Shown in pieces: positions 30,583 through 32,314 of a stretch of 64,000 nt of DNA. The stretch covers positions 1 to 64,000 of the forward strand of contig REDS01000117.1 of the NCBI GenBank assembly GCA_007693395.1, written 5' to 3'. The first letter of the stretch is position 1. Each line of letters starts with the position of its first letter. The translations under genes and the position numbers were made by a program. The stretch is from Balneolaceae bacterium. GTDB taxonomy: Bacteria > Bacteroidota > Rhodothermia > Balneolales > Balneolaceae. The notes beneath the pieces are model-generated. The model made no database searches. It saw nothing but the letters and a program-made list of their open reading frames with translations, and was not told where the DNA came from.

Positions 30583-30903
30583 CTAAAGCTTTGTTATGCT
30601 CACCGATTCAAGCGCCGTTTCGAGCGAACAGATACCATCGATAAAGCTTTTCACCCAGAAATCCACACTCTCTCTGCGGCGTTGTACGTACGCACAATTT
30701 GTTGAGTACCTCCCATGAAGTTCGTCATAGTAGGCTTTCACATCATCTTTTACGGCAAGTTTTAACTCTGCCGGAAGGTTGCCCCATCCAAGCAGGTGGA
30801 ACATCTCTTCTGTTTTAGAATGATCTTCTTTGGTTTTCTTAAAAATTTTGAGAAGTGGTGTTACCGGGACTGTTCGTACTCTGGTTTTTTTTGCTGTATT
30901 CAT
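30583..30903 (-). CDS. Hypothetical protein, 106 aa
   Basis: I do not recognise this protein. It is basic at the N-terminus (MNTAKKTRVRTVPVTPLLKIF), has no signal peptide or membrane helix, and seems mostly helical. It contains a Trp-rich middle (LLGWGNLPAEL) and a Tyr/Arg patch (YYDELHGRYSTNCAYVQRRRE). Coding is supported by its GGAGTAAA ribosome-binding site seven bases before the ATG and by the regulatory layout in its leader: the ribosome-binding site pairs perfectly with an upstream TTTACTCC, and a TGACAC/GTGTCA palindrome and a 10-base C run (minus strand) lie further up. It stands alone between purB and guaB. A small regulator or nucleic-acid-binding protein is possible, but this is a guess. 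Confidence 0.6.
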   Translation of the reverse strand: MNTAKKTRVRTVPVTPLLKIFKKTKEDHSKTEEMFHLLGWGNLPAELKLAVKDDVKAYYDELHGRYSTNCAYVQRRRESVDFWVKSFIDGICSLETALESVSITKL

Positions 30904-30908
30904 TATGA

Positions 30909-30940
30909 TTTACTCCGTTTGTTTATCGTTCAGGAGTAAA
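30909..30940 (-). promoter_or_regulatory. Leader hairpin that would sequester the ribosome-binding site
   Basis: On the minus strand TTTACTCC (30940-30933) is followed after 16 bases by its exact complement GGAGTAAA (30916-30909), which is the ribosome-binding site of the 106-aa gene. Folding would hide the site from ribosomes. Confidence 0.6.
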
Positions 30941-30954
30941 TTAATGACCTACTG

Positions 30955-30970
30955 TGACACCTTAGTGTCA
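30955..30970. promoter_or_regulatory. Palindrome TGACAC-CTTA-GTGTCA
   Basis: A perfect 6-bp arm inverted repeat with a 4-base spacer, about 52 bp upstream of the 106-aa gene start. The size and symmetry fit a dimeric-regulator operator. Which regulator binds is unknown. Confidence 0.5.
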
Positions 30971-30977
30971 TCCCTTA

Positions 30978-30987
30978 GGGGGGGGGG
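30978..30987. repeat. Homopolymeric G10 (C10 on minus strand) tract
   Basis: Ten consecutive G between purB and the 106-aa gene, 7 bp from the palindrome. It is the longest G/C homopolymer I noticed in the window. Such tracts are prone to slipped-strand length change and to sequencing error. Confidence 0.9.
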
Positions 30988-31018: not shown

Positions 31019-32314
31019 CTACAAACCCACCCGCTCAAAAATCTCGTCCACTCTTCTTGTATGATGGTTTAAATCAAATGCTGTATCTATTTCTGAAGAG
31101 GTTAAATTCTCTTTGATGGTTTCATCTGCCTCTACAAGATCGCGAAAGTTTCGTTTCTCTTCCCAGGCTTTCATGGCCAACGGCTGAACAGTATCGTACG
31201 CTATTTCGCGGGAAAGGCCTTTTTCGATGAGCATTAGCAGTAGGCGCTGGGAAAAAACCAGCCCATGAGTTTTCTCCATATTCTCAAGCATATTCTCAGG
31301 ATAAACCATCAATTTCTCGATTACACCTGAGAAACGGTTCAGCATATAGTCAAGCAAAATGGTGGCATCAGGCAGGATGATTCTCTCCACAGAAGAGTGT
31401 GAAATATCGCGTTCGTGCCAAAGCGGAACATTTTCGAATGATGAGATCATATACCCGCGCAGAACTCGTGCACAACCTGTAATATTTTCGGAACTTATAG
31501 GATTTCGCTTATGCGGCATAGCTGACGAACCCTTCTGCCCTTTGCTAAAAAACTCCTCGGCTTCCCGTAATTCAGTGCGCTGCAAATGGCGTATTTCTAC
31601 GGCAATTTTTTCGAGTGTGGATCCAATCAATGCCAGTGTTGCCATGTAGTGTGCGTGGCGGTCGCGCTGAAGGGTTTGCGTGGAAACAGGAGCCGGACTT
31701 ATACCGAGCCGCTCGCAGGTAAGCTGTTCTACTTTTGGCGGAATATGTGCAAAAGTACCAACCGCACCTGAAAGTTTCCCAAATTCAACACCGGCTGCTG
31801 CGTGTTTAAACCGCTCTATGTTCCGTTGCATTTCAGCATACCAAAGTGCACATTTCAGGCCAAAAGTTGTGGGTTCGGCGTGTACTCCATGGGTGCGCCC
31901 CATCATTACTGTTAGCTTGTGTTTCCTTGCTTTTTCTGCCAAGGCAGCTGTAAAACATTCGAGGCCGCTTTTCAGAAGTTCATTCGCCTGCTTAAGACGA
32001 AACCCGTTTGCGGTATCTACCACATCGGTTGAGGTAAGACCGTAATGAACCCACTTCTTTTCGTCACCCAATGTTTCTGATACTGCCCTTGTGAAAGCAA
32101 CAACATCATGCCGTGTATCTTTTTCAATTTCATGGATTCTATCCACATTAAACGTAGCATTTTGATAGAGTTTTTCAACGTCTTCTGCGGGTATAGTGCC
32201 TATCTGGCTCCATGCCCAGCATGCTGCAAGTTCAACTTCAAGCCAGGCTTTAAACTGGTTCTCTTCAGTCCAAATATCGGCCATTTCCTTGCGGGAATAT
32301 CGTTCAATCATCAA
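31019..32314 (-). CDS. purB: Adenylosuccinate lyase
   Basis: 431 aa. The fumarase/aspartase superfamily signature is [11 protein letters not shown] at about 262-272, with the catalytic Ser in the flexible loop; [14 protein letters not shown] holds the general-acid His (142). It cleaves SAICAR in IMP synthesis and adenylosuccinate in AMP synthesis. The guaB and purB genes lie close together, giving a small purine cluster interrupted by the 106-aa unknown. It begins 6 bp after the M48 peptidase stop, so it is likely read from the upstream operon. Confidence 0.97.

Follow-up and report, generated by a model that had tools for sequence, protein, structure and literature searches.

The transposases of IS10 and IS50 are protected from outside transcription: RNA that reads into their genes folds over the start, while RNA from the internal promoter does not. 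Long transcripts of the lysozyme gene (e) of phage T4 hide the ribosome-binding site in a helix, the 5′ strand of which contains the functional promoter (PMC3014915). Among WYL-type regulators, DriD is a homodimeric activator whose site, a pseudo-palindrome of 20 bp, covers the −35 region at a fixed distance from the −10 (PMC12340889), and the PafBC motif is tTGTCRgtg-N8-TannnT (PMC5656591); mycobacterial recA answers to both LexA and PafBC (PMC8223512). The Balneolaeota LexA motif, based on gel shifts, is the direct repeat TTACACATATTTTWTACATA (PMC7739468), and the housekeeping sigma factor of Bacteroidota has TAnnTTTG as its −7 box, which in Flavobacterium spans −12 to −5 (PMC9723704; PMC7366714). 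The leader described here precedes a gene for a protein of 106 amino acids (aa) in a 64 kb window (the whole stretch analysed, positions 1 to 64,000 of contig REDS01000117.1) from a Balneolaceae bacterium of the genus Rhodohalobacter (Balneolota). We read it as a two-layer switch, in which a damage-type promoter is combined with a translation lock acting on read-through RNA, and give this reading a probability of about 0.6.

The promoter was compared at 81 homologous 106-aa loci of Balneolales, and the same order was seen at all 50 loci of the first set and all 31 further loci: GTGACA-N6-TGTCAC, exactly 10 nt, TAnnTT, 4 nt and a purine. Within the box, the TG, C and TGTCA positions are 95–100% conserved, and in the −7 element T at −12 is found in 98%, and A at −11 and T at −7 in 100%, of loci; the base at +1 is A or G in 96%. 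With the TAnnTTTG box placed as in Flavobacterium (−12 to −5), transcription of the window gene is predicted to start at 30931. Judged from this arrangement, the palindrome (minus-strand core TGACAC-TAAG-GTGTCA, 30970–30955) is one half of a promoter, an operator-like element over the −35 region, and does not belong to a riboregulator. The exact pattern TGACA-N6-TGTCA occurs once in the window, at this palindrome. Two other roles were rejected: a purB terminator, as there is no terminator-like site on the strand of the gene and a promoter follows the palindrome, and a CRP-type site at −41.5, as the centre of the box lies near −31.5. The N6 spacer of the box is itself constrained (consensus yWATGn), with G at −30 in 97% of the 81 loci, an asymmetry within an otherwise symmetric box.

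Other genes lie behind the same promoter. The box, with the same spacing, was present in 21 of 21 Rhodohalobacter recA leaders tested, and in the window genome the box promoter also precedes hsdM and a gene for a GIY-YIG nuclease. A combined pattern gave 31 matches in 59 genomes, against one for the reversed pattern. Outside Balneolales, beyond the range of the 106-aa family, a similar pattern was found at up to eight sites per genome, with no control matches, and these sites precede recA, ssb, recR, the gene for topoisomerase IV A, a PARP-domain gene, a cas gene and IS605-type transposase genes. From the identity of the genes it precedes, the box appears to define a DNA-maintenance regulon, of which the 106-aa gene is the member most constantly present across Balneolales. 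Several individual sites can be added: the box promoter of hsdM (type I restriction-modification) occurs in two Rhodohalobacter genomes (L092, L186), and among the sites outside the order are those ahead of the cas gene (L273), the PARP-domain gene (L275) and three near-identical IS605-type transposase genes (L258, L263, L264), the last of which suggests a mobile element carrying the box. In one genome the 106-aa gene is present twice in tandem, and a separate box and −7 element precede each copy (G083:C3:281484-283418; L228, L229).

The palindrome was also considered as a LexA box, and this was rejected. The published motif is different, and at the 81 loci TTACACATATTTTWTACATA is matched with 5–10 mismatches, the same as in shuffled sequence, against 2–6 mismatches at recA and 3 at lexA. 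Repeats of the TTACACATATTTTWTACATA type are visible at the recA, lexA and umuD promoters of the window genome (L052, L057, L058). Because the LexA repeat and the palindromic box both stand at the recA promoter, recA seems, from sequence, to be under two inputs.

By analogy with the described systems, the most likely and best candidate for an activator of the box is an HTH-WYL-WCX protein of the DriD/PafBC type. The window genome encodes a single WYL protein (G000:C71, 320 aa; P0001), which has HTH, WYL and WCX domains and sequence kinship to both PafBC and DriD, and its orthologue was found in 31 of 31 further Balneolaceae genomes. The distance from TGTC to the TA of the −10/−7 box is the same in the 106-aa promoter as in the PafBC motif (PMC5656591), and, as expected of a WYL-dependent promoter, the site lies over −35 at a fixed distance from the −7 box (exactly N10 at 81/81 loci) in organisms that encode such a regulator, three draft genomes apart. 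A genome without the WYL gene, G076, is also without boxes. The WYL gene of the window genome has no box at its own promoter.

The second layer concerns the inverted repeat, laid out on the minus strand as ATTTACTCC-N16-GGAGTAAAT (30941–30933 and 30916–30908). The perfect complement to the gene's own ribosome-binding site noticed in a first-pass annotation, made from the window sequence, is present, with 9 bp and not 8 bp, and the leader folds more stably than 200 of 200 shuffles (z −3.4). Pairing was scored in 24 Rhodohalobacter leaders between the segment from −14 to −1 and the 17 nt ending at the ATG. The mean helix score was 18.2, against 11.8 when partners were re-paired (the highest of 2000 re-pairings reached 14.7), and fell to about 9 when either window was slid; recA leaders with the same promoter scored 8.6 and have no hairpin. 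In 14 leaders sharing one register, a count of base pairs gave 82% paired and the covariation score was 0.312 against 0.156, a value reached by none of 500 shuffles. A helix with arms that change together is present in 21 of the 24 genomes, with pairs such as ACTCC/GGAGT, GCTT/AAGC, GTGATA/TATCAC, GGTAT/ATACC and GTGTG/CACAC in different species. The alignment of relatives that had been proposed to check the hairpin thus shows the arms kept as a pair, with compensatory changes, in Rhodohalobacter. On this sequence comparison, the inverted repeat is genuine and under selection in that genus, and the selected feature is most likely an RNA fold, because the letters differ between species while pairing stays, and a protein site would keep its letters. 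Conservation of the hairpin throughout the order was considered and rejected, the signal being strong only in Rhodohalobacter. An Rfam scan of the leader gave no family at threshold.

The arms are placed in a particular way relative to the promoter. In all 21 helix-bearing leaders the last base of the 5′ arm falls between −4 and +1 relative to the predicted start, and mRNA from the gene's own promoter would therefore lack this arm. For the window gene, the predicted cost of opening the start region is 1.4 kcal/mol in RNA from its own start and 11.0 kcal/mol in read-through RNA; the medians for the 24 leaders are 1.35 and 9.4 kcal/mol, and 4.3 kcal/mol for read-through RNA with the 5′ arm shuffled. 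As in T4 gene e, the helix is predicted to hide the ribosome-binding site or start codon in the long RNA, and the promoter, from the predicted start, lies inside the 5′ strand, leaving the gene's own RNA without that strand. An RNA thermometer or riboswitch has its hairpin in the functional mRNA, and here the 5′ arm is upstream of the predicted start. No terminator-like site was found on the strand of the gene between purB and the box. The upstream gene is co-directional in Rhodohalobacter, where it is mostly purB, and divergent in most other families of the order; a link between hairpin and upstream gene direction is no more than suggestive.

In the window, purB and guaB flank the 106-aa gene and all three have the same direction (coordinates of the main features are given in Table 1). 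Loci retrieved by protein search match records of R. sulfatireducens and R. halophilus, along with many Balneolaceae drafts. Homologues of the 106-aa protein were found in 52 of 59 relatives, in no genome outside Balneolales among 396 drawn from the GTDB phylum, and in none of the phages or plasmids searched. AlphaFold2 predicts four helices with a predicted local distance difference test (pLDDT) score of 88.9; searches gave no Pfam or NCBIfam family and no PDB relative by sequence or by fold (best fold E-value 5.3). By likeness to DidA, a role as a damage-induced checkpoint or inhibitor protein may be guessed.

Table 1. Main features of the 106-aa locus in the window
Feature	Position	Strand	Basis
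5′ arm ATTTACTCC, predicted −10 to −2, within promoter, upstream of start	30933..30941	(-)	leader sequence
3′ arm GGAGTAAAT, over ribosome-binding site	30908..30916	(-)	leader sequence, opening cost
Palindromic operator-like box ATGACACTAAGGTGTCAC, predicted −40 to −23	30954..30971	(-)	81/81 loci, Rhodohalobacter recA leaders
−7 promoter element TAATTTAC, TAnnTTTG type, predicted −12 to −5	30936..30943	(-)	81-locus conservation, PMC9723704
Predicted transcription start, +1 = G, 5th base past −7 box	30931	(-)	consensus, +1 purine rule
Homopolymer C10, confined to window genome, predicted −56 to −47	30978..30987	(-)	leader sequence, relatives compared
Orphan gene, 106 aa, Balneolales-only family, predicted four-helix protein	30583..30903	(-)	ORF (open reading frame) list, homologue and structure searches
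purB, upstream, co-directional; likely source of read-through RNA	31019..32314	(-)	gene order, terminator scan

In the proposed switch, the first layer would be the palindromic operator over −35 with the TAnnTTTG −7 box, a promoter common to recA and other DNA-maintenance genes that is most likely switched on by DNA damage or single-stranded DNA. The activator of this promoter would most likely be G000:C71, proposed on the promoter architecture and acting in the manner of Caulobacter DriD or mycobacterial PafBC. The second layer, in Rhodohalobacter, would consist of the 5′ arm, lying in the −7 box and ending at the start, and the 3′ arm over the ribosome-binding site or start codon. An mRNA begun at the promoter, whose start is placed by consensus, would have no 5′ arm and would be translated. 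RNA reading in from purB or another upstream gene would carry both arms, fold, hide the start codon and stay untranslated, a block predicted from folding energies and covariation. Because read-through RNA would fold and the gene's own mRNA would not contain the 5′ arm, production of the 106-aa protein would require firing of its own promoter.

Several observations weigh against this proposal. The start site, induction and read-through all rest on prediction, as does binding of the box by a WYL protein. The WYL gene was not found in three genomes that have the box (G003, G014 and G028, all fragmented draft assemblies), and G035 has a WYL protein without the box. A good helix is missing in three Rhodohalobacter genomes (L012, L023 and L025), and outside the genus arm pairing is at background in 26 loci and weak in 31 further ones. 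Some genomes outside Rhodohalobacter have a co-directional upstream gene yet the hairpin is absent or weak, so the connection with read-through is not clean.

The first-pass annotation had supposed that translation is off by default until temperature, a ligand or a protein opens it. Shut translation is indeed predicted for RNA with both arms, but a default-shut state of the gene's own message is unsupported, because the conserved −7 box overlaps the 5′ arm and the start predicted from the consensus, 30931, lies just downstream of TTTACTCC, the very situation that the annotation had named as contradicting a hairpin in the message. A classic riboregulator, with the main transcript starting upstream of the 5′ arm and a hairpin of the normal mRNA opened by temperature, ligand or protein, would account for a stable, covarying hairpin over the ribosome-binding site. 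It is nevertheless unlikely: the 5′ arm overlaps a −7 box held at a fixed distance from the operator at 81/81 loci, the ending of all arms at −4 to +1 would be a coincidence, no Rfam family reached threshold, and recA has the same promoter without a hairpin. Still less likely is an inverted repeat that owes its existence to chance, inherited similarity or a DNA-level operator and has no RNA role. The lineages are related and the signal is weak outside the genus, as that explanation would have it, but the arm letters vary by species yet stay complementary, unlike a fixed protein site, slid windows keep the relatedness while their score stays at background, and no shuffle in 500 reached the observed covariation.

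A more serious, though tentative, alternative keeps the promoter as described and has the box bound by another factor, either a repressor or an activator of a different family. A palindrome over −35 also fits a repressor, and the predicted nature of WYL binding, the three boxed genomes in which WYL was not found and the unboxed WYL gene of the window genome all leave room for it. Against it stand the spacing, which matches PafBC sites, the layout, which matches DriD, the presence of only one WYL gene in the window genome, and the joint absence of WYL and boxes from G076. The 106-aa protein itself was rejected as the general binder of the box, since boxed promoters exist outside Balneolales, where the protein is absent. 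The homopolymer that had been noticed with the other elements is present (30987–30978), and no other run of G or C in the 64 kb exceeds 7. A rare run placed upstream, at a point where expression could depend on spacing or on an A/T-rich element, might tune that expression by slippage (phase variation); this is very improbable indeed, as the run is in no relative compared and lies outside the box to −7 spacing and the box-to-start unit as a whole. A private mutation, or an error of assembly in a 227-contig draft, may account for it. Chance is opposed by recurrence at 81/81 loci for the palindromic promoter and by compensatory changes in Rhodohalobacter for the arms.

If the two-layer switch is correct, a second damage-response promoter, with its members named, would exist in a group whose SOS regulon seemed to depend on LexA only. 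It would also provide a chromosomal, covarying case of a lock of the T4-lysozyme type, in which one sequence is both promoter box and hairpin arm. Such a lock would say that leaky 106-aa protein is costly, a hint of a checkpoint, inhibitor or toxin-like protein. A wider reading, rather unlikely, is that Balneolales and related orders have an undescribed second WYL-driven damage regulon, marked by the palindromic box and comprising recA, ssb, recR, topoisomerase, PARP and cas genes, with the 106-aa gene as its most constant Balneolales member; the 106-aa protein would be a damage-induced effector of a new type, harmful enough on misexpression for Rhodohalobacter to have evolved an RNA lock, set in the promoter, against read-through.

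The proposed logic of the Rhodohalobacter leader resembles that of IS10 and IS50. The arms of those elements come from the element end, and the Rhodohalobacter arms are rebuilt species by species inside the promoter. The likeness to T4 gene e is that mRNA from a promoter embedded in the stem is without the 5′ strand and is translated (PMC3014915). The phage case is a timing switch and the present one a chromosomal, stress-type gene with a different promoter and sequence, where the lock is a prediction. The Balneolaeota LexA regulon (PMC7739468) is found in the same organisms and has recA in common with the boxed genes, but its motif is the direct repeat TTACACATATTTTWTACATA, which the 106-aa gene is without. 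RecA-NDp of mycobacteria lacks palindromic symmetry and PafBC forms a heterodimer, unlike the Rhodohalobacter case; alike is the placing of recA under LexA and a second system (PMC5656591, PMC8223512). With the DriD regulon of Caulobacter (didA, recJ, bapE; PMC12340889) the likeness is one of layout, the Rhodohalobacter regulator is a candidate, and the 106-aa protein has no established kinship to DidA. The two share a pseudo-palindrome over −35 at a fixed distance from the −10, and the SOS independence of the DriD regulon, with recombination genes and a small checkpoint protein among its targets, is counted as a further likeness.
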